From positions 1-28,924 of the IMG/VR virus record IMGVR_UViG_3300037584_001024: 28,924 nucleotides of DNA; one strand, written 5' to 3'. The DNA is from a virus. How positions within the stretch are numbered: position 1 is the stretch's first letter; each line of letters opens with the position of its first letter. The notes beneath the pieces were generated by a model. The model had not been told where the DNA came from, searched no databases, and saw nothing but the letters and a program-made list of their open reading frames with translations. Below, piece after piece: positions 1,813 through 17,718 of the stretch. The translations under genes and the position numbers were made by a program.

Positions 1813-3573
1813 TTATCCTTTATAATCTGGGTGATGTCCTCTATTCGGCATATCAAATGGTGCTACCTTGCTTTGCTCTGATCCTGCAGGTTTAGCTTTG
1901 TAGCTTTTCGGTATGCTATCTACTTCATTATAATCTTTTATCTTGTCGCTTTTTTTAGTGGCATCTTTTAATCTATATAAAACCTCTTCCCAGACGTGAC
2001 CGCAGTTAACACCGCCTTTAAATTTAAACAAATCATAGGCTTCACCATTATGCCCAAATGATTTATTTACACCATCTCTACTAGCTTTGTCTATATCCTC
2101 TAATCTATAAACCACATTGCCTTTGCTTCTAATCATCATTCTAATACAGAAATCTCTAGAGTTGCTACTTGGGTATTCTTCTTTATATCTGTATCTTACT
2201 TTATAAAAGCTTTTATCTAGGTAACTAAATCCATCTGGTTTAGATTTAATAAAATCTTGTAGCTTTTGTAATCCTGTTTTCTTTACCTCTATGCTTTCAG
2301 TAGCCCATTCTTCTACACTCTTATTGCTATCACAATGGTTTCTACTATCTACCTCTTCCCATTCCTCACTCATTGTTTCACCCTGTAAGTTGTCTAATAA
2401 TACATTAGCATAATCATCTGTTAACTCATTACTAAGTTTTACACCTGTTTCTTCTTCCTTAGTTTCATCATCCTCTATTCCCTCTAAATCTGTAAACTCT
2501 AATGGTTGTAATGTTTTGAAATATAATTTTAATGATATATCGTTGAATGCTAATATTTGATCAAAAGCATCTATTAACAATCTCTGGAAAGGTCTTATTA
2601 CTGTGTTATCCATTAATATACTAGCAGTTTTTAATTCATCTGCATTATTACCTAAACCTGTATTGTCTTTAATACCAATTAACATAGGGCTTACAACTCT
2701 GTGTGCTACTAATATTTTTTTAGCACTTTCATCAGATAGAAACTGGTATTGATTATGTGCATCACTTAATTGTATTGGCTCGATACTTGCAGCAGTAGCT
2801 GGATCATCATTAAAAGCAAGTATAAATTTACCTGCGTTACTAGAGCCACTAAATTTCTGATATATCTTTTTTTCTATTAATTCTCTTTCCTCTGCGTTAG
2901 GTGTTCCGTTGTTAAAGTTAATTAACATACTAGGTGCTAAACCATTGAGTATATTATTTAAATGATAATTAGATATTTCTTCTTCCAGATCTGCGTATTG
3001 TAAACCACCTGCATAATCAGGGCTAGAATAATATTTAAAACCTGCACGATAAGGCTTCACGTATAAGATCTCAATGCTTTCTTTGCTCATACCAAATGCT
3101 GGGATTCTTGTTAGCTTATCTCCCTTTCTATATTTACTCCAATCCTGAAAATAAAAATATGCAGGTATATCCCCATCCTCGTTAGATTTTTCAGCCCTTA
3201 ATGTTTCAACAGGCATATGCTCTACTTGTGCTATTGTTTTCCTATCCTTAGAATATATTATTTGCATCGCACATTGCCCCATAAGTTTTAGATCATAACA
3301 TAGTTTTCTAGTGCAATCTTTATTAAACAAAGAAATCATTTTAGCATATTCTTCTGGCTTTCTATTGCTATCCGTAGCATCTAAGCCTTTACCAAATATC
3401 ATTTCACTAATAGCGTTCATACAAGCACTATTTGTAGGGCTACCATTATATCTATCTATTAAATATTGAAAGTAATTATTATCTTCCCCATATGCTATCC
3501 AGTCCTGATAGGGCTTTTCTACTATATTCGGAGTAGTATATGTTGCTAGGTTTACTATTCTTAAATCGTTCAT
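1813..3573 (-). CDS. Portal protein with C-terminal extension
   Basis: 586 aa. Residues 1-360 carry portal features: an N-terminal region around WIAYGEDNNYFQYLIDRY, a long middle, and the signature GLGNNADELKTASIL (306-320) followed by VIRPFQRLLIDAFDQIL, which corresponds to the helical stem region of portal proteins. Portals form the dodecameric DNA channel at one capsid vertex. After an acidic linker (361-420) there is an extra module at about 445-540 with FCIRMM, VVYRLEDIDKA and GVNCGHVWEEVLYRL; its Cys/His residues recall MuF-type minor head domains, but this is a guess. The start overlaps the end of the upstream gene by 4 nt. The window before its ATG (ATTATATTATAGT) is a degenerate match to the start-proximal box seen at other late genes. 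Confidence 0.85.
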   Translation of the reverse strand: MNDLRIVNLATYTTPNIVEKPYQDWIAYGEDNNYFQYLIDRYNGSPTNSACMNAISEMIFGKGLDATDSNRKPEEYAKMISLFNKDCTRKLCYDLKLMGQCAMQIIYSKDRKTIAQVEHMPVETLRAEKSNEDGDIPAYFYFQDWSKYRKGDKLTRIPAFGMSKESIEILYVKPYRAGFKYYSSPDYAGGLQYADLEEEISNYHLNNILNGLAPSMLINFNNGTPNAEERELIEKKIYQKFSGSSNAGKFILAFNDDPATAASIEPIQLSDAHNQYQFLSDESAKKILVAHRVVSPMLIGIKDNTGLGNNADELKTASILMDNTVIRPFQRLLIDAFDQILAFNDISLKLYFKTLQPLEFTDLEGIEDDETKEEETGVKLSNELTDDYANVLLDNLQGETMSEEWEEVDSRNHCDSNKSVEEWATESIEVKKTGLQKLQDFIKSKPDGFSYLDKSFYKVRYRYKEEYPSSNSRDFCIRMMIRSKGNVVYRLEDIDKASRDGVNKSFGHNGEAYDLFKFKGGVNCGHVWEEVLYRLKDATKKSDKIKDYNEVDSIPKSYKAKPAGSEQSKVAPFDMPNRGHHPDYKG

Positions 3574-3935
3574 ACTATAATATAATCATTATCAAAAGAG
3601 TTCTCTGTAACATAATCACCATCATTCATATCGTAATAGTTGTTTGTGGCTTGATTTAATGTTTGATCTGTTACAAACATCCTATCTCTATATATTACAT
3701 TAGAGCCACTTTCTAAAGTTAGATTATAAAATCTACCTTCTTTTAAAATACTGTTCCCAGAATGCGTGTAAACGTTGTCTATGCTTATGTAATTACCAAC
3801 TGTTGTAGCACTAATACTATAAGTATAACTTTTATTAGTAGATTCATCTCTAACTTTTAATGTGCCACTACTTATAAATTCTCTGGGTATTATTTTAATA
3901 TTTTGTGAACTTGAACTCGTGGTTAATACTTTCAT
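3570..3935 (-). CDS. Small beta-rich virion-cluster protein (121 aa)
   Basis: 121 aa starting MKVLTTSSSSQNIKI, beta-rich and low in cysteine, with a middle LKEGRFYNLTLESGS and YRDRMFVTDQT and an acidic C-terminus ending NDYIIV. I chose the ATG at 3935 rather than an upstream ATG at 4013, because the upstream extension would run through a clear hairpin terminator (3970-3995) and because 3935 carries the start-proximal box TTTATATA at -13 and TGCAAAA at -33. It lies between the tube-like gene and the portal. Similar proteins occur near fibres and capsid genes of flavobacterial phages, but no function is known to me; a structural role is inferred from position. Confidence 0.7.
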   Translation of the reverse strand: MKVLTTSSSSQNIKIIPREFISSGTLKVRDESTNKSYTYSISATTVGNYISIDNVYTHSGNSILKEGRFYNLTLESGSNVIYRDRMFVTDQTLNQATNNYYDMNDGDYVTENSFDNDYIIV

Positions 3936-3940
3936 ACTAA

Positions 3941-3968
3941 TATATAAAGAAAAGTTTATTTTTTTGCA
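3941..3968 (-). promoter_or_regulatory. Start-proximal box upstream of the 3935 gene
   Basis: On the minus strand TGCAAAA (3968-3962) is followed after exactly 13 nt by TTTATATA (3948-3941), then 5 nt and the ATG. The same two-part spacing occurs at 6174 and 6970. It lies directly behind a terminator hairpin, which favours a promoter reading. Confidence 0.5.
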
Positions 3969-3969
3969 T

Positions 3970-3995
3970 AAAAAAAGGGATGCTATTAACATCCC
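3970..3995 (-). terminator. Rho-independent terminator after the tube-like gene
   Basis: On the minus strand GGGATG (3995-3990) pairs with CATCCC (3982-3977) across a 7-nt loop and is followed by seven T residues. It lies 28 nt beyond the stop of the 4023-4580 gene and just before the 3935 start box. Confidence 0.8.
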
Positions 3996-4022
3996 CTCTT
4001 TTGAAATACACACTAAAAAATA

Positions 4023-4580
4023 TTAGTTCGGTGCTATTTGGGTTCCTGATACTGTTACTTGTGCAAAAGAAGTTGCATTCATAAATGGTGGTGGAAATTT
4101 CTCCATCGCTTGAAAGCTTAAAGTGAATCCTGAAAGATCACCCATAGCTGCACCACTTACAATTGTGCCCCCGTTTACATCTGCTCCATTTTCATAACCA
4201 ACAACAAATCTATTTCCATTGTAATCCTCTACAATCACCTGTGGTCTAGAATAAGCTAAAAGCTTTAATTCCTGATTAGTACCTGCATCTAAGAAAGGTA
4301 ATGTTAAGTTTAAAACACTTTCGTAAAAAGTAGTTCCGTTTTCTCTACTAGAATTTACAGTTGTTTCTAAACTAGAATTTCCCTTTATATCAAATTTATA
4401 TGCAGTCGGTGTTCCTGTTATGTTGTTAATTGTTCCGTCAAAAGCTGATGCTGCAGGCTCATTTGAGCCATCATCAGTAGCAGTTCCTAACCCACCAAAA
4501 TCTACAAAGTAAATAGCTTTTAATCCACCTACTCCAGATTTGCAAGGTAGTCCTCTACCAGTTGTTAGTAAACACGCCAT
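4023..4580 (-). CDS. Probable major tail (tube) protein or other abundant virion protein
   Basis: 185 aa, beta-rich, without membrane segments. Visible blocks are LLTTGRGLPCKSGVGGLKAIYFVDFG at the start (residues 4-29), a central region LPFLDAGTNQELKLLAYSRP, and GAAMGDLSGFTLSFQAMEKFPP near the C-terminus. The terminal block is of the kind found in tail tube proteins, and the gene is isolated between two terminator-like hairpins right after the capsid gene, as expected for an abundantly made protein. A capsid decoration protein is the main alternative. The leader before the ATG is A-rich but lacks the TTTATATA box. Confidence 0.55.
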   Translation of the reverse strand: MACLLTTGRGLPCKSGVGGLKAIYFVDFGGLGTATDDGSNEPAASAFDGTINNITGTPTAYKFDIKGNSSLETTVNSSRENGTTFYESVLNLTLPFLDAGTNQELKLLAYSRPQVIVEDYNGNRFVVGYENGADVNGGTIVSGAAMGDLSGFTLSFQAMEKFPPPFMNATSFAQVTVSGTQIAPN

Positions 4581-4604
4581 AGTTTATTATTTTTAAAATT
4601 ATTA

Positions 4605-4628
4605 AATAAAGGGGGCTTTTACACCCCC
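4605..4628 (-). terminator. Hairpin terminator after the major capsid gene
   Basis: Minus-strand GGGGG (4628-4624) pairs with CCCCC (4615-4611), loop TGTAAAAG, followed by TTTATTTAAT. The T tract is interrupted, so termination may be partial, leaving read-through to the tube-like gene. Confidence 0.65.
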
Positions 4629-4635
4629 TCTTATA

Positions 4636-5595
4636 TTATGAATATAGTACTACTTCTGATCCGATGCCATACTGTACACCACTTGTAAATCTCATAATGA
4701 TTCTCACATTTTGATCTCCAAGAGTTTCAGATGTGTCAATTAAGCGTACTTCTGCGTGATCTGATAAAAGACCAGTACCGAAATATAGGTTGCTTTTTTG
4801 TGCACATACCATTTTGTTAGAAGCAAGTCCAGGTGCTACAAATAAATTAACACCATCAAAAGATAATGCTCCATTGTTCCACCATTGTGTTCCTTGTGCA
4901 TTTACACCATTAGCACCTAATCCTGATGCTCCAAAACCTCCTAATGCTCTTACATAAGCCTTAGCTACATTTTGTGGAATGTAAATAAATAGATCTTCTT
5001 TTCCGTAGATTTTACTAGGAATAGCATCTACTACTTTGCCTAATTCTGAGATTACATTTGCAGCAGTTACAGTTCCCGCAGTTACATCTACTACATCACT
5101 ATCTGATCCAAATAAAGTTACGAATCCATCAAATTCACCTGCATTACCATTCGCACCACCCCAGATAGTTTCTTCTGTTTTCTCTGCTACTTTTGCAGCA
5201 ACGTGAGAAATTAAGAAATCTGAAAACTTAGGCGGCATATTATCGTATGCTGAAATGCCCATAGCAATCGCTTCCCAGTCGTTTCTGTAATCTTTCTTAC
5301 ATAATTGTAGGTTTACTTGGAACTCTTCTGGCTGTAATATTCTTTCTGTTAAAGTAAGAGCATCAGCAGTTAAAGAGAAATCACAAGTAGCATCTGCAAC
5401 AATACCACTAGATGCAACCTTTTTAATTACTTCTTTATACTTAATGTTGGGCTTTACAGTAATCCCTCCATTAGAAATTGTAGCACCACTCAAAAGTGCA
5501 GCAGCGATATAATCTCCTGCAAATTCACCAGCATAAGTTGTCGTTAAGCTGTTTAATGAGTTATCTACATCTAAATTAATTTTTCTTGTACTCAT
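4636..5595 (-). CDS. Major capsid protein, HK97-type fold
   Basis: 319 aa. The C-terminal third reads KSNLYFGTGLLSDHAEV then VRLIDTSETLGDQNVRI, ending with GVQYGIGSEVVLYS, which matches capsid proteins of Bacteroidota siphoviruses; the earlier EEFQVNLQLCKKDYRNDWE region fits the E-loop and spine-helix part. The protein forms the icosahedral shell. It follows the scaffold gene by 21 nt and is closed by a hairpin, so it can be a strongly expressed unit. The N-terminal roughly 40 residues could be cut by the XkdF-type protease encoded upstream, but no cleavage site can be read from the sequence. Confidence 0.85.
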   Translation of the reverse strand: MSTRKINLDVDNSLNSLTTTYAGEFAGDYIAAALLSGATISNGGITVKPNIKYKEVIKKVASSGIVADATCDFSLTADALTLTERILQPEEFQVNLQLCKKDYRNDWEAIAMGISAYDNMPPKFSDFLISHVAAKVAEKTEETIWGGANGNAGEFDGFVTLFGSDSDVVDVTAGTVTAANVISELGKVVDAIPSKIYGKEDLFIYIPQNVAKAYVRALGGFGASGLGANGVNAQGTQWWNNGALSFDGVNLFVAPGLASNKMVCAQKSNLYFGTGLLSDHAEVRLIDTSETLGDQNVRIIMRFTSGVQYGIGSEVVLYS

Positions 5596-5618
5596 TTTAA
5601 TTATTGATTTTAATTATT
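5595..5618 (-). repeat. Short direct repeat in the capsid gene leader
   Basis: The 11-mer AATAATTAAAA (minus strand) occurs twice, at 5618-5608 and 5605-5595, the second running into the ATG of the capsid gene. A-rich leaders favour translation in Bacteroidota, so this may be a translation enhancer for an abundant product; chance is also possible in such A+T-rich DNA. Confidence 0.4.
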
Positions 5619-6174
5619 ATTTATTTTTATTAATCATTGCAAGCACTCTGTCCATAGTCGTTTGACTTCTATTTTGTGAGTACAATACTTTTTTCTTTTC
5701 ATTTACTACCTCTGGAGAATGCTTGATAGGTTCTGCAGCAGGCTGTGATAGTTCTTCCACTACCTCTTCTGGTAATTCATTACTCATTTCTTCTTTCTTA
5801 CCCATTGATTCTTTCATATCCATTACCATTTTCTTTAGAGCATCAAACTCATCTTTGGTAGGGTATTTCTCCTCATTCATATCTTCTTTCTCTTCTTCTT
5901 CTTCCTTTTCATCCTCATACTCTTTTTTCTCATAACCTAGATCAGCAATAATACCTTCTTCTTCGATTTTCAGCATATCGCCTGATTCCATTTCATATTC
6001 CCCCACAGGTAGAGCTACCTTAGTATCTTCGGTAAGAATAAATACCTCGTTGCCAGATGCAAACTTCTCAGCTTCTAAAACTGTTCCATTCTCTAGCTTT
6101 AATTGTTCCAATCTCACCTCTTCGGATGGATTGATTACATCCTTGATTTTATTTAACATTTCTGTTGCTTTCAT
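5617..6174 (-). CDS. Capsid scaffold-like acidic protein
   Basis: 185 aa, very acidic and low complexity in the middle (EDEKEEEEEKEDMNEEK at about 88-104), with predicted coiled-coil helices (KDEFDALKKMVMDMKESM) and a basic end NRSQTTMDRVLAMINKNK. The order protease, acidic helical protein, capsid protein is the usual protease-scaffold-capsid set, and basic C-terminal helices of scaffolds bind capsid subunits. It would act inside the procapsid and be degraded by the protease. The leader has TTTATATA at -13 and TGCAAAA at -33. Function is inferred from context and composition. Confidence 0.65.
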   Translation of the reverse strand: MKATEMLNKIKDVINPSEEVRLEQLKLENGTVLEAEKFASGNEVFILTEDTKVALPVGEYEMESGDMLKIEEEGIIADLGYEKKEYEDEKEEEEEKEDMNEEKYPTKDEFDALKKMVMDMKESMGKKEEMSNELPEEVVEELSQPAAEPIKHSPEVVNEKKKVLYSQNRSQTTMDRVLAMINKNK

Positions 6175-6179
6175 ATTAT

Positions 6180-6207
6180 TATATAAATTAAAAATTACTA
6201 TTTTGCA
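6180..6207 (-). promoter_or_regulatory. Start-proximal box upstream of the scaffold gene
   Basis: Minus-strand TGCAAAA (6207-6201), 13 nt, TTTATATA (6187-6180), 5 nt, ATG at 6174. Same spacing as at 3935 and 6970. It lies in the short gap after the 52-codon gene. Confidence 0.5.
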
Positions 6208-6216
6208 TTTTGTTTA

Positions 6217-6375
6217 TTAAATTCTTCCAATACCCTGTGCGTGTAACGATCCATCGCAACAATCTATATGGTATCTATCATCCTTACATAAACAACCCTT
6301 TCTGCTTCCATAGGGGCTTGTTCTACTTGGTGTAACAAATTCTGTTACCTTTTTTTTAAATCTTTTAGTATGCAC
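6217..6375 (-). CDS. Small Cys-rich protein between protease and scaffold (52 aa, GTG start)
   Basis: 52 codons from GTG at 6375; the codon before it is a stop and no ATG exists in frame, so GTG is the only good start. The basic N-terminus (HTKRFKKKV) is followed by YGSRKGCLCKDD, IDCCDGSLHAQGIG. The CxC and CC pairs could bind a metal, and the C-terminal CCDGSLHAQGIG pattern resembles short proteins I associate with flavobacterial phage capsid clusters. It overlaps the protease stop by 11 nt. Role unknown; a capsid-assembly accessory protein is a guess from position. Confidence 0.6.
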   Translation of the reverse strand: MHTKRFKKKVTEFVTPSRTSPYGSRKGCLCKDDRYHIDCCDGSLHAQGIGRI

Positions 6376-6970
6376 TTAATATATTTTTTATTTGATCTAT
6401 TAAACCTTGTGCATTATCTTCTTTACTTAATTCGCTTTTTGGTTTATCTTTAGGTCTTTCCATTTTATCTGCAAAATAACCCTCTATGCTAAAGCCCTTT
6501 ACCTTTCCTGTCTTTACAAACTCTTGCCAGATCTTCTCATTGTTTACTTTTACAGCACCCATCCAAGTACCCATCGGCACATTCATATCATACTTTCTAG
6601 ATTTATCGTGGGTTTCATCCTCTACTATCCAACTTTCTACTAAGCTTAAACCATTTAAACTATGCTGATGTTCTAGTGTAGTTTTATTTTGATTGCCTTT
6701 CATTAAGTATAATTGTGATGCTTTCTGTACTGTGTCTTTAGAAAAGTATATGTAATATTCTTCTGCACCATTACTTCTGTAAATAGGTTTATTAGGAATT
6801 AACAAAGCCCCTAATAAGATTCTTTTCTCATTATCTACCTCTGCTAATTTAACCTCTTGTGATTTAAGAGCAATAAAATCTTCTTCTATCGCAGGATTCT
6901 CTACTACTGATATTGCTTCAATACCACCTAGCTCATCCATTTCATCAATTACTAATTCTATAACTTTCAT
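6365..6970 (-). CDS. Prohead maturation protease, XkdF-like
   Basis: 201 aa. The core (about 50-165) contains GALLIPNKPIYRS, YYIYFSKDTV, TTLEHQHSLNGLSLVESW and KGFSIEGYF, the pattern of the XkdF putative phage serine protease family (Phage_XkdF). His101 or His103 and Ser161 are candidates for the catalytic residues known from capsid proteases of the herpesvirus-protease type; I infer this from motif positions. It would process scaffold and capsid inside the prohead. Gene order protease, small protein, scaffold, capsid supports this. Upstream, 35 nt after the tape measure stop, it has the two-part start box. Confidence 0.85.
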   Translation of the reverse strand: MKVIELVIDEMDELGGIEAISVVENPAIEEDFIALKSQEVKLAEVDNEKRILLGALLIPNKPIYRSNGAEEYYIYFSKDTVQKASQLYLMKGNQNKTTLEHQHSLNGLSLVESWIVEDETHDKSRKYDMNVPMGTWMGAVKVNNEKIWQEFVKTGKVKGFSIEGYFADKMERPKDKPKSELSKEDNAQGLIDQIKNILSAY

Positions 6971-6975
6971 AATTA

Positions 6976-7003
6976 TATATAAATTAAATTTATTTTTTTT
7001 GCA
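6976..7003 (-). promoter_or_regulatory. Start-proximal box upstream of the protease gene
   Basis: Minus-strand TGCAAAA (7003-6997), 13 nt, TTTATATA (6983-6976), 5 nt, ATG at 6970. It fills the whole gap between the tape measure stop and the protease start, and would allow the head module to be transcribed apart from the tail module. Confidence 0.5.
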
Positions 7004-7005
7004 TT

Positions 7006-8805
7006 TTAATCTCCAAGACTTGCACCTTGTATAATATTATTCTCTAAACTTTGTGCAGAGGTTACATCCTGACTTACAACAAAAGCCTGTACTGGTTGTT
7101 GTTCTTGTTGTGCTATGCTTTGTGCTAATTGATTCTCTGGAGATGCACCAACAATATTAAATGCAGGTGCTGCAGTTCCCTGTGCTATTGCTGATGGTAA
7201 AGCCCCACCACCACTTTGCCCTGGCACTTTTACTGACATTATATTTTTTACGTTTCCAATACCCGTAGATATTACCGTAAACATAGCAGCTATTCTTGCA
7301 AACGTACTAGGTATTGTTTCATCTTTTAATGTTTTGTTTGCAGCATCATAAGTATTCATTAAAGCACTAGCTACTGCAAAAGCTTTACCTGCCACAGTTT
7401 GCTGTCCTAATAATTGACTAAGCGATTGTGATGCATCTGCAAATATTCCTAAAGCACTTTTCTTTGCTTCCTGTGTTTCTTCTTCTATTTCTACCTCAGC
7501 AGTTTTATATTTATCATTTATCTCTGCTAGTTTCTTTTTTTCTGCTTCATCTAACTCTGCAAGTAAAGGTGACATAATTCCATAATGCTCTATGATTTGT
7601 TGTCTTAATTTAGAAAAATGTTCTTCGTTTTTTCTTATTTCTTCTGCTTGTCTTTCTGCATCTGTGTCTATAAGAGCCTGTCTGATAGCTTCTATTTCAG
7701 AAGCCTTTTGTTTTTCTCTATTGATTGCGTTAGCATCTCTCTTTGCCTGTTCGTTATCCTCTATCTGTGTTACACTATTTTCAAAACCTGCTAAAGTATT
7801 TTTTAAGGTGTTTAATTTGTTCTGTGTAGTTTCAATAGATTTATCTGCTTCTTCCTCTACTTTCTCAGGATCAAAAACTAACTCAGCTATTCCCCCAAAT
7901 AATCCCTCTGTCAATCCAAAATCTTTACCAAACTGTTTACCAATAGCATCTATGCTTCTTAATAAGATAGCTAATGGTGCTGATATAAACTGCAATACTC
8001 CAGACAAAATAGCTTTGTTTCTTTCAGCAGCTTCTAACTGTGATTCTTTTATTTGTTTCTGTGTTTCTAATTGTGCTTCTAATTGAGATATAACAGCTTT
8101 TGTTTGTTGTACCTTTAAGCCTAATATTTCTTTCTCTGTTTTGCCTTGTTGTTTAAGGATGTTTTCTGATCCCTCTATTGCCTTAAATCTTTTTTCCTCT
8201 TCTGCTACCGCTTCACTTTGTTTCTTTAATAGGTCAGTCGTTTCAGTGCTTACACCACTAACTAATTTTTTTATCTTATCAAAGTTAGCTATTAACAACC
8301 CAACAGCTACAATTACTGCACCTATTCCTGTTGCGATTAATGCCTTGGTAAAAACACTTACACCCCTTGAAGCACTTATAAATCCTAATCTTGTTAGCCT
8401 TAAAAGTTTTACACCTTTTCTCAGTTGCCCAAAATATCCACCTGTTACCATATTTAGAGCAGCAGTATTTTCTCTGCTCTTAATTAATTCCTTAGAAATA
8501 AACCCTTGTCTTTTCTGAAAACTTATATCTGCTTTAGCTTCTTGCTTCTGGAGATTTAAACTTTTTAAAGCAATTCTCTGTTCTTTTAATGAATCTGTTA
8601 CTCTGTCAATAGATGCTTGTACCTTTTTTCTAGCACCTAATTGAGATTTAGGTATATCTTCTTGGATTCTTTTTAATCTAAGCAGTTCTTCTTCTAACTC
8701 AATAGTTATTTTTTTCTGCTCTAATATTGTATCTGTAAGTTCTTTAAAGGATTGCTCTGCTTGTTTCAGATCACCCCTAATCCTAATTACTCTTTCTTCT
8801 GCCAT
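7006..8805 (-). CDS. Tail tape measure protein
   Basis: 599 aa, long coiled coils (about 10-110 and 185-460), one hydrophobic stretch ALIATGIGAVIVAVGLLIA (155-173), a second at about 266-285, then a helical Ala/Ser-rich region and a Gln/Ala-rich C-terminus. This is the usual composition of tape measure proteins, which set tail length and help DNA entry. By the usual rule of about 0.15 nm per residue the tail would be near 90 nm. The start overlaps the 47-codon gene by 23 nt. Oddly, it precedes rather than follows the head genes. Confidence 0.8.
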   Translation of the reverse strand: MAEERVIRIRGDLKQAEQSFKELTDTILEQKKITIELEEELLRLKRIQEDIPKSQLGARKKVQASIDRVTDSLKEQRIALKSLNLQKQEAKADISFQKRQGFISKELIKSRENTAALNMVTGGYFGQLRKGVKLLRLTRLGFISASRGVSVFTKALIATGIGAVIVAVGLLIANFDKIKKLVSGVSTETTDLLKKQSEAVAEEEKRFKAIEGSENILKQQGKTEKEILGLKVQQTKAVISQLEAQLETQKQIKESQLEAAERNKAILSGVLQFISAPLAILLRSIDAIGKQFGKDFGLTEGLFGGIAELVFDPEKVEEEADKSIETTQNKLNTLKNTLAGFENSVTQIEDNEQAKRDANAINREKQKASEIEAIRQALIDTDAERQAEEIRKNEEHFSKLRQQIIEHYGIMSPLLAELDEAEKKKLAEINDKYKTAEVEIEEETQEAKKSALGIFADASQSLSQLLGQQTVAGKAFAVASALMNTYDAANKTLKDETIPSTFARIAAMFTVISTGIGNVKNIMSVKVPGQSGGGALPSAIAQGTAAPAFNIVGASPENQLAQSIAQQEQQPVQAFVVSQDVTSAQSLENNIIQGASLGD

Positions 8806-12149: not shown

Positions 12150-12696
12150 TTAAATTTATTTCTTGGTTTTTAATATCATTATATATTTGTCCTTCTAAAT
12201 CTAGTGCGTATGCTTTTAGTATATCATCTGGTAAATACTTCATTACTTGGTTTAAAGCTTTAGTTAAAAACATACTAGGTGCAATACCTCTAAACCAAAT
12301 GCTTCTTACTATTAAATGTTGTAATGATTTTTGTGTAATAAACCTACCTGTTTTTTTATCTCTTCCTTTTATTCCTCTTCGCTTAATCCATTTCTCTATC
12401 CCGTCAGTTAGTCCACCTTTTTTTCCTGTGCCAGATCCAAACCTGTATGGACTATTAGGTGCTTTGTTTCCGCTTCCCGTTCCTTGCACCCCTTGATCTA
12501 TAAACTTAGCATAGTCCTTCGCAAATATACTTAGGTCAAAACTACCTACCCCTGTTTTAACTTCCTTTCTAATACTATTTAAAAGAGCACCAGATACAAC
12601 TTTCTTTTCTTGTTTTAAGTTAGCCTTGCTTTGATTAACCAAAAACTTAGCATAACCATTTAATATCTTTTTTAATTCTTTAGGATCTTTTAACAT
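12142..12696 (-). CDS. HK97 gp10-like tail completion / neck protein
   Basis: 184 aa, basic. The first 65 residues (LVNQSKANLKQEKKVVSGALLNSIRKEV, seen at 19-46, then FAKDYAKFIDQGVQG at 58-72) match the HK97 gp10-like pattern: helix, 'tGaLr.Si', beta strands, 'Ya.fvd.G'. A glycine- and lysine-rich insert with PNSPYRFGSGTGKKGG and a helical C-terminus follow. Such proteins complete the tail at the neck. It overlaps the upstream tail terminator-like gene by 7 nt. Confidence 0.7.
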   Translation of the reverse strand: MLKDPKELKKILNGYAKFLVNQSKANLKQEKKVVSGALLNSIRKEVKTGVGSFDLSIFAKDYAKFIDQGVQGTGSGNKAPNSPYRFGSGTGKKGGLTDGIEKWIKRRGIKGRDKKTGRFITQKSLQHLIVRSIWFRGIAPSMFLTKALNQVMKYLPDDILKAYALDLEGQIYNDIKNQEINLNG

Positions 12697-13160
12697 ATCG
12701 TAATGTCATTGTGTATTAATATATCAAAGGTACTAGCCCATCCTGCTAATCTGTTTTCAAACCTTTCATAAAAAGGCTCACAGCTTGCCACCCCATCTAA
12801 CTGATATAAATCTGTATGTAATGTGCCACCTCTTAAAACACCGATCAATTTATTTACCACTCCTAATTGTGTATTTAATATATCGTGTTCATTATTGTTG
12901 CCTACAAACTTATCTGCTCCCTCTTCTTTATTTTCATCTACAATATCCATTGTTAGGATCGTTACATTAAATCTTAACACTTGATCTTCTTGTGATACGT
13001 TATTTATAATAATATGTGATAATGGAAATATAGTTTGCTTATTTAAATCTACATCTGTAATATCTCCTGTGGTTACTGTGTTACAATTAACATCCGATAA
13101 CAACTGCTCTTCTATTTTAGTTAACACTAAATAAAAGCCCCTTATACCTTTATGGCTCAT
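12690..13160 (-). CDS. Tail terminator-like protein
   Basis: 156 aa, mixed alpha/beta with no membrane segment. Visible are FYLVLTKIEEQLLSD near the N-terminus, FPLSHIIINNV, LNTQLGVVNKLIGVLRGG and a C-terminal EPFYERFENRLAGWASTFDI. This arrangement, with a final strand pair after 'EPF..RFEN.LAGW', is what I recall for tail terminator or completion proteins of Bacteroidota phages. Its place directly before the gp10-like gene supports this. Assignment is from pattern and order. Confidence 0.55.
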   Translation of the reverse strand: MSHKGIRGFYLVLTKIEEQLLSDVNCNTVTTGDITDVDLNKQTIFPLSHIIINNVSQEDQVLRFNVTILTMDIVDENKEEGADKFVGNNNEHDILNTQLGVVNKLIGVLRGGTLHTDLYQLDGVASCEPFYERFENRLAGWASTFDILIHNDITIC

Positions 13161-13282
13161 CTCTTATATGTTTTAAAATTATATATTGCAATTCTAAATA
13201 AGATAATTAATAGGATAATAGAATATATATTTAGGTGGGGCTCACCACATAAACCTAATAGGTGCTTTATTGTTTCAATCAT
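13157..13282 (-). CDS. Small one-TM protein in tail cluster (41 aa)
   Basis: 41 codons, MIETIKHLLGLCGEPHLNIY then a hydrophobic helix (about 19-36) and a basic tail NFKTYKR. Its start overlaps the stop of the frameshift ORF (ATGA at 13282-13279) and its stop overlaps the next start (ATGA at 13160-13157), so both junctions are coupled. The LGLCGEPH motif is one I associate with small membrane proteins of flavobacterial phages. Function unknown. Confidence 0.6.
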   Translation of the reverse strand: MIETIKHLLGLCGEPHLNIYSIILLIILFRIAIYNFKTYKR

Positions 13283-14009
13283 TTAAAACCTTTTTTAATT
13301 AATCTTTGTTCTATCTCTTGTTTCTCTTTTTCAAATGTCAGATAGTATAAACATTTGTGTATATTTAATTTAGTGATATTTTCAAATCTTGTAATGTCGC
13401 CTTTAGCGAGTGCATAAATGGAGTTATACCATCCATACTTTCTAGTAAAATTTGTTGCTCCATCAAGTTGTCCTTGTCCGCTTTCTGAATATAGCTGGTC
13501 ATAACTTTGCATAAGTCGATCCCTAAATTGTAAAAAAAAACAACCGATCCAAATACAATTCCTAAAGGCATATTGTTATAGATCTGAAAATTGCCTGGCT
13601 CATACTCCTCAATAATATATTTATCTCCTTTTTTTAATGTAACAGGTCGATACAATACTGCCATTGCCTTTTCAATCTCTTCCCACTTTCCAATATAAGT
13701 ATCCAAATCTACATACTCACCGAAACTCATATCATCTAGATTAGGTATAAAGCCATATTCAATCCCATCCATTTTAAATCTATTTATCAGTATGCTTTTG
13801 TTTTCTAATATGTCAAATATTTGTGCAGTTATGCTTGTGATATCATCAGCCCTCATTCTTCTTATGCTAACATACGGGATGTTACAAAATATTTTAATTG
13901 TTTCTATTTGCAGTTGTGTATCTGTTAAATCTTTTAATGAAGCAAACTCTTTATATTGTTTTAAAGTTATATCATTTAAACTTGTTGGTACTGTTATGCT
14001 AGTTTTCAT
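13279..14009 (-). CDS. Tail assembly chaperone, long form by -1 frameshift (gpGT-like)
   Basis: Predicted fusion of the first 159 codons of the frame-0 gene with a -1 frame that ends at 13279, giving about 243 aa. In the slip zone frame 0 reads GTT TTT TTT TAC; slipping back one base on T-TTT-TTT continues as TTA CAA TTT. The -1 tail contains SESGQGQLDGATNF, KYGWYNSIYALAKGDITRF and ENITKLNIHKCLYYL, a conserved-looking pattern in Bacteroidota phages, and ends just where the 41-codon gene starts. In lambda the gpG/gpGT pair made this way is needed to assemble the tail tube on the tape measure. Frameshifting is inferred from frames and motif. Confidence 0.65.
13365..14009 (-). CDS. Tail assembly chaperone, short form (gpG-like)
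   Basis: 214 aa in frame 0. Features include SLNDITLKQYKEFASLKDL near the N-terminus, FIPNLDDMSFGEYVDLDTYI (88-107) and AVLYRPV (117-123). Size, position between terminase and tail genes, and the overlapping -1 ORF fit the G/GT chaperone pair. After the slippery run, both frame 0 (55 codons, ending ITPFMHSLKATLQDL and ISLN) and -1 stay open, so the stretch 13365-13531 is dual-coding. The gene has TTTATATA at -13 and a 36-nt gap after the terminase stop. Confidence 0.7.
   Translation of the reverse strand: MKTSITVPTSLNDITLKQYKEFASLKDLTDTQLQIETIKIFCNIPYVSIRRMRADDITSITAQIFDILENKSILINRFKMDGIEYGFIPNLDDMSFGEYVDLDTYIGKWEEIEKAMAVLYRPVTLKKGDKYIIEEYEPGNFQIYNNMPLGIVFGSVVFFYNLGIDLCKVMTSYIQKADKDNLMEQQILLESMDGITPFMHSLKATLQDLKISLN
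13532..13540 (-). other. Slippery T9 run, -1 frameshift site
   Basis: Nine T on the minus strand. In frame 0 they read (G)TT TTT TTT T(AC), so T TTT TTT (13539-13533) is a legal X XXY YYZ heptamer. Slipping back one base joins residue 159 to the -1 frame. Confidence 0.65.
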
Positions 14010-14044: not shown

Positions 14045-15208
14045 CTAATTTATTGTATATCTTCCAAAGTTAGGTCTGCTTAATATACTATAAGTCGCAT
14101 ACCTTACTGCATCTATAATGTGATTGTTCTTATCTTCTGGAATATTTGTTAGCTTTCCGCTCTTATCTTCTTTCCATTTATAATTCCTGAACTCCTGAAT
14201 TGCATTGTTACTTGTAGAAGTAATAAAAACCTTATACCTCTTCAATAAATCGATTCCAGCATTTACACTATCCCTACCCTTTAAACTAGGTCTAATGTTC
14301 CAACCCATTCTTCTTAATTCTTCTATTAATCTCGGCTCACTACTATCCATATATAATTGATTTCTTGCAACCCCTACCTCCTTAAATGTATTGTGTAGAT
14401 CTTTAGTGGTCATTTGTGTTCTGTATAAATGTTCTTTAATATAAAGATTATAATCTAAACTATAAACACTTACAAGTGTTGAGGGATCATTGGAGTATCC
14501 TGCATCTGCACCATATGCTATAAACTTAGCATCTTCAGGTATCTGTGAGCATTCATAATAATTAAATATAGTAGCTTTGCTTATACCCTTTAATCCTAAT
14601 CCATATATCTGCCAGTATTGTTCATCCGTTTCTTTTAATCTTTCTATCTCGGATTTAATGCTTTGTTCTAAGAAAGGATTATCTAAATAAGTTGTTCTAA
14701 AGAAATCACAATCTTCTCTAGGTATTACTTTATCATATATCCAATGGTATTCGTCACTCGGATTGTAATCAATTATAATTTTGCCATCTGTTCTAAATAT
14801 TAATTGTTGCCAATCTTCCCAATTTAACTCATTAGCTTCATTAATAAATAACAGGTTTCTTTTTCTACCTCTTACCTTTTGTGGCATATCTAAGCTAATA
14901 AACTCTACAAGATTATTAAACAACCTATACTCGCTATTGGATTTATTGTGATCCTCTTCTTTGTATATATTTAATTTACGCAATATGTCTAGGAAATCAC
15001 GCATTACCGAAGCTCTTAAACTAGGAAAGGCTTTTCTGCAGATTGTTATTGTTTTGTTTCGATTACTCGCACAATATTGCAAGATAATCCATAAGAGTAT
15101 ATTATATGTTTTACCAGATCTTGTACCACCCTGTTCAACAATAATTTTTTTATTACTATTGATGAGATGCTTATAGACTTTATTGGTTTGTATCTTCTGT
15201 TTTATCAA
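14045..15208 (-). CDS. terL: Terminase large subunit
   Basis: 387 aa. ATPase domain: Walker A GGTRSGKT (27-34), Walker B NLLFINEANE (118-127), coupling motif around IIIDYNPS (144-151). Nuclease domain with the three expected acidic positions: D235 in YGADAGYSNDP, D288 in LYMDSSEPR and D366 in NNHIIDAVRYA. It packages and cuts phage DNA at the portal. The sequence is of the PBSX/Terminase_3-type. The start overlaps the small terminase gene by 29 nt. It follows directly on the modification cassette, so base modification and packaging genes may share a transcript. Confidence 0.93.
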   Translation of the reverse strand: MIKQKIQTNKVYKHLINSNKKIIVEQGGTRSGKTYNILLWIILQYCASNRNKTITICRKAFPSLRASVMRDFLDILRKLNIYKEEDHNKSNSEYRLFNNLVEFISLDMPQKVRGRKRNLLFINEANELNWEDWQQLIFRTDGKIIIDYNPSDEYHWIYDKVIPREDCDFFRTTYLDNPFLEQSIKSEIERLKETDEQYWQIYGLGLKGISKATIFNYYECSQIPEDAKFIAYGADAGYSNDPSTLVSVYSLDYNLYIKEHLYRTQMTTKDLHNTFKEVGVARNQLYMDSSEPRLIEELRRMGWNIRPSLKGRDSVNAGIDLLKRYKVFITSTSNNAIQEFRNYKWKEDKSGKLTNIPEDKNNHIIDAVRYATYSILSRPNFGRYTIN

Positions 15209-15539
15209 TTATCTCTACTTGAAAATTAGTAGGCACCCCATCAGCACCTGTGATCTCTTGTCTTTCTACATATCCTCTTTTCTTTCCTTTTGTTTTCAAA
15301 TAAAATATAGTCGCACTTGTTGAGTTCTCGGCTATCTGTCTGTGTAATTGTGATTCAGCAAAATCCAATGCTACATTCTGCACATCATCTACTTGCTTTT
15401 TAAATTCTAGATCTGTGTTATACCAGTCATAGTAAGTTGTTCTGCCTATGCCCACTTTCTTACAGGCTGTTGTAACAACTCCCAAAGATTTTTCTAATGC
15501 ATCTAATAATGCCTTTTTATGCTGTTCGGTTTTGTTCAT
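15180..15539 (-). CDS. terS: Terminase small subunit
   Basis: 119 aa from ATG at 15539; an in-frame TTG two codons upstream is possible but less likely. The N-terminal half holds a helix-turn-helix, VTTACKKVGIGRTTYYDWYN (about 22-41), followed by helices EFKKQVDDVQNVALDFAESQLHRQI and a C-terminal TKGKKRGYVERQEITG. This is the usual form of phage small terminase that recognises packaging sites. The start overlaps the dioxygenase gene stop by 23 nt. Next to terL the call is safe. Confidence 0.85.
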   Translation of the reverse strand: MNKTEQHKKALLDALEKSLGVVTTACKKVGIGRTTYYDWYNTDLEFKKQVDDVQNVALDFAESQLHRQIAENSTSATIFYLKTKGKKRGYVERQEITGADGVPTNFQVEIIDKTEDTNQ

Positions 15540-16407
15540 TTTCAATACTATTTTTATAATCTTTTGCTTCTTTTTTTCTTTGTCGTAATGAATCTAAATG
15601 ATCAGGATCTAATCGATTAGCTTCACGCACCATTTTCTTTTCTCTAATTCTGTCAATCTCTTCTTCTATTGTATTGCATTGCCACATTCTTTCTAGTGAA
15701 TAATAAACAACACTATACCTATAAGCCTTATTATTTCCATACTCAATAGGGCTAACTCCGTGTAGTAAATCTTGTCCATCGAATATAGTCAATGAATTGT
15801 CTGCTACTTCTAATGATATATCTAGTTCTGGTATTACCAAATGTCCACCCTGCACATCTCCTTTAAACACAACCATATTGCTGTAAACATTTTTAAAGTT
15901 ACCAGAATCGTAATGATATTTTAATTGATTGTTTTTGTTTACAATACCGCTTGTAAATACACTATTATTAATTACCCATTGTTCTTTTACCTTATCTTTT
16001 ACTTTGTTTTTGTGTTCGCTAAATGTTTCAGGAAAGAACTCGTGATAGTATTTAGATACTTCTTGTGCAAATCTGCTAATAACATAATGCTGTTTAGGGT
16101 GTGAGGTTCCCATTGCACTAGCACTACAATAATCGTGTTTATTTTCTTGTCTTGGATTATAGCCAAATACTGCGCTTGTGTTGACTAGTCCGTGTGTTCT
16201 TTTGCCTGTTCCGTATTTAATGTTTTTGACTGCCCATCGCACATCGTTTGGTTTCTTGGGTAAAATCCTGTAAAGTAAAATGGGCTTGTTGTTATGATAT
16301 ATAATTACATCATCTTTTATATGTCTGCTTACATCTGATAACATCGCTGTTCTTCTGATATAATCTTTTTTGTCAATTGGTTTTCTATCTACATCTATTC
16401 TTCTCAT
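15517..16407 (-). CDS. TET/JBP-type 2OG-Fe(II) DNA base dioxygenase
   Basis: 296 aa. The double-stranded beta-helix core shows the iron ligands H165 and D167 in YHYDSGN, GG at 187-188, the distal H216 in LLHGVSP and R230 in YRYSVVYY for 2-oxoglutarate. Upstream, VFGYNPRQENKHDYC (80-94) matches the 'G..pr...r..yC' pattern of the TET/JBP family. Known members oxidise 5-methylcytosine or thymine in DNA. The C-terminal helix (250-296) is Lys/Arg-rich. Its start overlaps the glycosyltransferase stop (ATGA), and its end runs into terS. Phage TETs in published work act on 5mC, but no cytosine methyltransferase is in this window, so the substrate is open. Confidence 0.85.
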   Translation of the reverse strand: MRRIDVDRKPIDKKDYIRRTAMLSDVSRHIKDDVIIYHNNKPILLYRILPKKPNDVRWAVKNIKYGTGKRTHGLVNTSAVFGYNPRQENKHDYCSASAMGTSHPKQHYVISRFAQEVSKYYHEFFPETFSEHKNKVKDKVKEQWVINNSVFTSGIVNKNNQLKYHYDSGNFKNVYSNMVVFKGDVQGGHLVIPELDISLEVADNSLTIFDGQDLLHGVSPIEYGNNKAYRYSVVYYSLERMWQCNTIEEEIDRIREKKMVREANRLDPDHLDSLRQRKKEAKDYKNSIENEQNRTA

Positions 16408-17147
16408 CGCATATCTTTTAATCTTAATTCAGCATTGCCTGTTGTTTTTCTAATATACATTTTACAAAATTCAGGAAACATACTCTGTATTTGATATATA
16501 GAATCATATACATATTGTTTTGTTCTTATCTCTTGTAGCCCCCCCTGTTCTTTATAATAATTTGATTTAACTGTTAAGTAATCTAATCTTACAAGCCTTT
16601 TGTTTCTTATGTATTGCCTAATACTATATTCATAATCCTCTCCGTGGTTTGTAACACGATCTAAAAATTTATCGTGATCAACAATGACACCAAACATAGA
16701 AGCAATTATATAGCATAGCTTTGTATATATTCTGTTCTTCATAAAATACGGATTGCCTGCTGCATAAATACCAAAGGTTTTAGCTTGTATTTGCTCACAA
16801 GCATTAAATCCTTTATAAAAGACGTCTTTTTCCAAATCCTCAACATCTATTAGCTTATTACCTTTTTTTCTTTGCACCTTTTCTATATCATCATCAAACA
16901 TCATTAGCCTTGTACCCTCATCATAATACTTCTCAATAAAGTTTCTTTGTTTGCCAATGGTGGGCACACCTACAACAATTTTATAATTATCCGCAAGGCT
17001 TTCTTTGTATATTTTTTCTTCTTCTTTGTTTGCTACAAAAATTGTAATCAGATCTTTACTAATATTATAATCCGATAAAAGCCTTAATGTTTTCTTTTTT
17101 ATTGTTTCTGGTCGCTTATAAGATGGTATTGCAATTTTATAATCCAT
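16404..17147 (-). CDS. TET-associated glycosyltransferase-like GT-A enzyme
   Basis: 247 aa from ATG at 17147 (a TTG three codons earlier is less likely). The N-terminal IAIPSYKRPETIKKKTL is typical of GT-A enzymes, VPTIGKQRNFIEKYY precedes the acidic DDD (85-87, in LMMFDDDIEK) that would bind the metal and sugar nucleotide, and NHGEDYEYSIRQYI (about 162-175) supplies a later acidic motif. This order matches the TAGT family predicted to glycosylate bases hydroxylated by phage TET/JBP enzymes. It is tied by overlaps to the ParB-like gene upstream and the dioxygenase downstream. Sugar and linkage cannot be told from sequence. Confidence 0.75.
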   Translation of the reverse strand: MDYKIAIPSYKRPETIKKKTLRLLSDYNISKDLITIFVANKEEEKIYKESLADNYKIVVGVPTIGKQRNFIEKYYDEGTRLMMFDDDIEKVQRKKGNKLIDVEDLEKDVFYKGFNACEQIQAKTFGIYAAGNPYFMKNRIYTKLCYIIASMFGVIVDHDKFLDRVTNHGEDYEYSIRQYIRNKRLVRLDYLTVKSNYYKEQGGLQEIRTKQYVYDSIYQIQSMFPEFCKMYIRKTTGNAELRLKDMR

Positions 17148-17718
17148 ACTTATCAATTAAAAATTTAAATGCCTGTGTGTTGTCCGTAAGGCTTTCTTTT
17201 TCTCTTATTGTTTCTAGATCTTTAACTGCCTTTTCATACTCATCTGCATTAAAATACAGGGTTATTTGCTTTACCTTTGCATTTATATATGTGTCTAATT
17301 CTTGATGAAAAATATCTTTGTCAACTTCAGGCTCCTCGTCCTCATCAAAATATATTCTAGGCAGATCTAATCCCCATTCCTTTAATTCATTTAACTCCCA
17401 TTCGTTTGCCAACACATCCCAGTCCCATTCTCCAAAGCTACTGTTATCTTTAATAACAAATTCTTTTTTTTGTTTTTCTGATAAATCATCTGCCTGTATA
17501 ACATAAACATTTTTTAAACCCGCCTGCACTGCAGCCTTGTATCGCATATTGCCACCCAGTATAATATTGTTCTCATCCACAACAATTGGTCGCAACTGCA
17601 TCATTTCTGGAAAATCCTTAATGCTTTTTACAAGCTTGTTAAATTTATAGTCCTTAATTACCCTTGGGTTTTGTGGATTGTTTTTAATTTTATCTATGTT
17701 TATTTTTATAGGTTTCAT
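17137..17718 (-). CDS. ParB-like nuclease-domain protein of the modification cassette
   Basis: 193 aa. The ParB/Srx-type core is at 1-95: NNPQNPRVI (13-21), QLRPIVVDENNIILGGNMRYKAA with the GGNMR box (55-59) and DDLSEKQKKEFVIKDN. Then FGEWDWDVLANEWELNELKEWG (95-116), which in many phages precedes a DNA methylase domain; here no methylase follows, only an acidic linker and a short alpha/beta tail. Such ParB proteins often sit beside DNA modification enzymes, and TET/JBP-TAGT-ParB neighbourhoods have been predicted in phages. It heads the cassette, with TTTATATA at -13. Whether it is a nuclease, CTP-switch or adaptor is not clear. Confidence 0.75.
   Translation of the reverse strand: MKPIKINIDKIKNNPQNPRVIKDYKFNKLVKSIKDFPEMMQLRPIVVDENNIILGGNMRYKAAVQAGLKNVYVIQADDLSEKQKKEFVIKDNSSFGEWDWDVLANEWELNELKEWGLDLPRIYFDEDEEPEVDKDIFHQELDTYINAKVKQITLYFNADEYEKAVKDLETIREKESLTDNTQAFKFLIDKYGL

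Follow-up and report, generated by a model that had tools for sequence, protein, structure and literature searches.

Does a phage gene that carries nine consecutive T's specify one protein or two, and if two, what changes the reading frame? The gene lies in a 28,924-bp IMG/VR virus record, the whole of which was analyzed and is called the window here, with its main genes on the minus strand. The frame-0 open reading frame (ORF; 13365..14009, minus strand) encodes 214 residues, of which 1 to 159 form an N-terminal domain that would be common to both products. It reads GTT TTT TTT TAC across exactly nine T's (13532..13540, minus strand), with the heptamer T_TTT_TTT in register at 13533-13539, and remains open on to 13365. 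From TTA (13533-13531), where it joins, the -1 frame continues through a tail of 84 codons (13282..13533, minus strand), reached by the frame change, to a TGA at 13281-13279, so that a -1 change after residue 159 would give a fusion of 159 + 84 = 243 residues. The two frames share a dual-coding stretch of about 165 nucleotides (nt) (13368..13533, minus strand), in which 55 post-slip frame-0 codons overlie the -1 frame, and the +1 frame at the run closes within 1 to 7 codons. An earlier note, made from the letters of this DNA, had proposed a programmed -1 frameshift here: the nine-T run was exactly as described, translation bore out a -1 frame open to 13279 and a fusion of about 243 residues versus 214, and its span of dual coding, 13365-13531, was right within a few bases.

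The -1 stop and the following ATG share bases in the sequence ATGA (13279..13282, minus strand), an arrangement that the same note had read as a sign of real use; the overlap recurred in 131 of 207 unique relatives, and thus in most of them. In the window the overlapped ATG starts a 41-residue ORF (13157..13282, minus strand), kept in the closest relatives only (21 loci), which lies between the two-frame gene and a gene for a 156-residue protein (12690..13160, minus strand). The latter matched phrog_30964 (unnamed; E value, 2.7e-18), and we take its product to be tail-terminator-like; another gene downstream matched phrog_5 ("tail completion or Neck1"). In many relatives this tail-terminator-like gene itself directly follows the two-frame gene.

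Relatives were collected in two scans of viral contigs, each with one half of the gene as the sole query, and many contigs were shared by both scans. At all 204 testable loci of these scans, frame 0 and the -1 frame were present as separate overlapping ORFs with the same -1 offset, and no locus carried a fused single ORF (0/204), a regularity well in excess of chance. The conservation of both frames, on which the earlier note had made its reading depend, was therefore seen throughout. The 204 loci represented 156 unique overlap DNAs, every one of which had T_TTT_TTT in the frame-0 register (156/156). With distant relatives added, the set grew to 278 unique overlaps. Among the 275 parsed automatically, the run comprised 9 T's in 230, 10 T's in 44, and 12 T's in 1, and the remaining three (L033, L034, and L230), which were read by eye, had nine; every relative read thus had a run of 9 to 12 T's, never below nine. 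The cultured Nonlabens phage P12024S has CTT TTT TTT TAT at the same place, and runs of at least nine T's were also found in freshwater phages 27 to 33% identical to P12024S. Distant copies in Bacteroidia genomes and in one viral contig read GTT TTT TTT TGC, GCT TTT TTT TTG/TTA, or AGT TTT TTT TTG, all with nine T's and each carrying the tail as a separate ORF in the -1 frame.

Conservation of the -1 frame, including the motif F-R...KWGWYxSIYxLAxGDITRFENITKL, started at the run, where there was no conserved start codon. Past the slip, most relatives, like the window, have 55 further frame-0 codons; several deep branches have more, and P12024S has about 25. Among the relatives seen, a stop interrupts the -1 tail in just one, the distant contig L230 (620-665). 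In L008 and L049, a one-base deletion before the run is offset by a tenth T, leaving about nine residues in another frame before the original frame is restored. One two-frame copy (L378, 6581-7329) lies in a Bacteroidia chromosome near lipoyl-synthase-like and TonB-like genes; none of the ORFs listed around it is an evident phage gene, and the copy is possibly a remnant. Four BFVD chains, A0A516L611, A0A6J7WJY4, A0A6J5N3F3, and A0A6J5MY57, matched both the frame-0 and the -1 tail models, some only weakly, which hints that they may be naturally fused single-ORF relatives. Flavobacterium phage 6H (L206, 10044-10927), a fold-level relative at 15% identity, was considered as support and set aside, as TAG closes its -1 frame immediately; its protein ends RCFFYSTR at T_TTT_TTC_TAT, and an open frame continues past the -1 stop.

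Across the main group (1,460 pairs), the positions of substitutions followed the two frames. Upstream of the run, 55% fell at frame-0 third positions, and downstream of the frame-0 stop, 59% fell at -1 third positions; between the run and that stop, the third-position shares were mixed (39% and 37%) and substitution rates were lowered. A two-frame test was made on 53 independent (nonoverlapping) pairs over 159 nt of dual coding. Among 245 changes silent in the -1 frame, 30 were also silent in frame 0 versus 6.8 expected, and 3 touched stops versus 10.2 expected. Reciprocally, 30.5 of 235 frame-0-silent changes were silent in the -1 frame versus 6.2 expected, with 2 touching stops versus 18.8 expected. 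A single-coding control downstream stayed near expectation (18.5 silent changes versus 22.2 expected; 27 stops versus 20.2 expected). Because doubly silent changes exceeded expectation and the control did not depart from it in this way, purifying selection acts on both frames across the 159-nt dual-coding stretch of the main group.

These results bear on three simpler accounts of the locus. Homopolymers are error-prone and the window is a single contig, so a miscount of the run during sequencing or assembly might have split what is truly one ORF, the concern that the earlier note had itself raised. This account is extremely improbable: none of the 204 loci sharing the offset was fused, the cultured isolate agrees, and selection acts on the frame-0 tail as well. 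Sequencing error is excluded as a general cause because runs of 9 to 12 T's occur in all relatives, the P12024S and Bacteroidia copies included. It is also very improbable, though not to that extreme, that the locus holds two separate genes, with the -1 ORF starting internally and no fusion made. The window does have an ATG in the -1 frame, at 13512, and P12024S is annotated with two coding sequences (CDS), but this ATG is missing in most relatives, which have RLVESYD instead of RLMQSYD; the -1 conservation, with its F-R motif, sets in exactly at the run, and the invariant run would be left without a reason. Scarcely more credible is the proposal that the fusion alone matters, strong conservation of the -1 sequence having left the frame-0 tail open incidentally. 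Conserved -1 residues do force parts of frame 0, KLN even forcing the frame-0 stop, and the frame-0 tail differs widely in length between deep branches and is poorly modelled; against this, -1-silent changes avoid altering frame 0 or touching its stops, and the downstream control lacks such a bias. The run, the frames, their conservation, and the selection on both frames are all directly observed, and by sequence evidence the locus is a real, conserved, programmed two-product gene that encodes two alternative C termini, in proteins of 214 and 243 residues. Both proteins are presumably made, two-frame selection by itself being no proof of this.

The gene follows the terminase large-subunit gene terL (14045..15208, minus strand; PF04466, E value, 3.9e-24; PF17288, E value, 3.6e-19). 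At least four genes separate it from the tape measure gene (7006-8805; phrog_24676), which it does not adjoin. The tail genes are followed by those for the tape measure, a protease-like protein, a major-capsid-like protein, and the portal (1813-8805), a gene order uncommon among tailed phages. The region 15517-17718, which lies upstream of the terminase genes, holds ORFs that we take, from their translations only, to be ParB-like, glycosyltransferase-like, and 2OG-oxygenase-like. Several relatives have a GC hairpin followed by nine T's, resembling an intrinsic terminator, between terL and the two-frame gene (2934-2976 in L009 and about 2938-2968 in L024), which suggests that the gene starts a new transcript in those relatives; this hairpin was not seen in the window.

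The frame-0 product matched phrog_32199 (function unknown; E value, 8.7e-15). AlphaFold2 (AF2) gave a confident domain for residues 1 to 165, with a predicted local distance difference test (pLDDT) score of about 90 for residues 11 to 160, and modelled the post-slip frame-0 tail poorly (pLDDT, 39 to 58); the -1 tail was modelled as four helices (pLDDT, 60). The "tail protein" family phrog_166 was matched weakly by 25 of 59 members (best E value, 7.9e-5). A fold search of the viral library BFVD gave weak matches to ctCpR1 (E value, 0.04) and ctgFB34 (E value, 0.47), both annotated as tail assembly chaperones, and nearly all its other matches were uncharacterised. PDB searches by sequence and by fold yielded nothing usable, with no solved structure resembling the protein, and for the two-frame gene Pfam gave nothing above chance-level matches. 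A role as a tail assembly chaperone, the name given by the earlier note, is our best guess, reached partly by elimination: the nearby tail genes and the weak profile and fold matches agree with it, but the position of the gene is noncanonical and frame 0 continues for 55 codons beyond the slip.

Whatever the slipping agent, we consider it probable that the gene is programmed to give two products and that these act in tail assembly. As proposed, two proteins with the same 159-residue N-terminal domain would differ in their C termini. The majority product would end in the 55-residue frame-0 tail (214 residues), and the minority product, arising from a -1 change at the nine T's, in the 84-residue helical tail (243 residues), although the ratio of short majority to long minority is one that we infer. 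By analogy with gpG/gpGT of phage lambda, the pair would most likely be a tail assembly chaperone in which the shared domain would coat the tape measure protein and the minor form would use its -1 tail to recruit the tail tube protein.

That the agent is the ribosome, with two Phe-tRNAs slipping by -1 on U_UUU_UUU, is the reading that we narrowly prefer, at roughly even chances. Frame change, dual coding, and real use, as proposed in the earlier note, thus stand on conservation and the selection test, but the ribosome as their agent does not stand equally firm. It is somewhat less than an even bet that RNA polymerase slips on the nine-T template instead, so that the mRNA pool would be mixed: ordinary translation of transcripts with one U added or two removed would yield the -1 tail, and that of transcripts one U short would terminate after a few codons; the two kinds of slippage may also act together. 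The run spans 9 to 12 T's in every relative even as its placement on the codons shifts between clades, and a run that never drops below nine fits the polymerase more readily than it does a ribosomal site of seven bases. The extra T's to the left and right of the heptamer number 1/1, 1/2, 2/0, 2/1, or 1/4 and, in one deep clade of Bacteroidia (GCT/AGT TTT TTT TTR), 0/2, left and right always adding up to at least two. Two clades that lose a T on one side carry extra T's on the other, for which a chance origin has a probability of about 0.01 by a rough, post hoc estimate. T_TTT_TTT is the sole heptamer in use. A search for a stimulatory RNA structure downstream of the run found none: RNAalifold predicted no pair and fold z-scores were near 0 (-0.8 to 1.0 in 12 sequences); nor does the window have an intrinsic terminator at the run. 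Bacterial polymerases have been reported to slip at a run length of nine (PMC5009743). On the other side, the frameshifts of phage tail chaperones have been attributed to the ribosome (PMC5009743), and the extra T's may simply follow from the residues wanted, namely hydrophobic-F-F-aromatic/Leu in frame 0 and Leu/Phe/Val in the -1 frame. Leu and Phe codon usage was checked alongside the run-length argument, which is suggestive and not decisive between ribosome and polymerase, since the two frames call for the same hydrophobic residues. More tentative still is the composite proposal of a widespread Bacteroidota phage family that makes its chaperone pair through RNA polymerase slippage on an invariant run of at least nine T's, with both selected C termini sharing a 165-nt stretch.

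Frame switches of this kind are known; what sets this one apart is the long dual-coding overlap and a run never below nine T's. In the lambda G/GT pair, the -1 frameshift occurs in translation and is conserved (Xu, Hendrix and Duda 2004, as cited in PMC5009743). The present gene resembles that pair, at the level of sequence and conservation, in its short protein and longer -1 fusion with a distinct C terminus, and also in the canonical X_XXY_YYZ slippery heptamer in the frame-0 register (T_TTT_TTT), in the tail and neck genes downstream, and in having no recognised enzymatic domain. Unlike lambda G/GT, to which no sequence relation was found here, it follows terL and lies several genes ahead of the tape measure gene, has 55 conserved frame-0 codons after the slip where lambda has a short run-on, and uses sites of 9 to 12 T's only. 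A conserved A/T homopolymer of at least nine at the frame change is a feature of the bacterial transcriptional slippage genes, which include Thermus dnaX, Shigella spa13, and IS elements (PMC5009743); this is, however, a phage gene of an unrelated kind, and slippage in it is proposed from the sequence. Nonlabens phages P12024S and P12024L have the same gene, T9 site, and -1 tail, also just after terL, with a frame-0 tail in P12024S much shorter than in the window. There P12024S_38 and P12024S_39 (L120, 11995-12689), corresponding to phrog_32199 and phrog_38404, are annotated as separate, unrelated hypothetical CDS though a T9 -1 site joins them.

The analysis thus gives a probable function, and a second product that had been missed, to a large unannotated family of marine and freshwater phage genes, which includes two cultured phages in which the two-product gene can be tested. 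It also identifies a stretch of phage DNA under measurable two-frame selection, in a kind of gene that gene callers split or truncate. With a run that is invariant over deep divergence, the family offers a clean natural case for setting ribosome against polymerase at a homopolymer.
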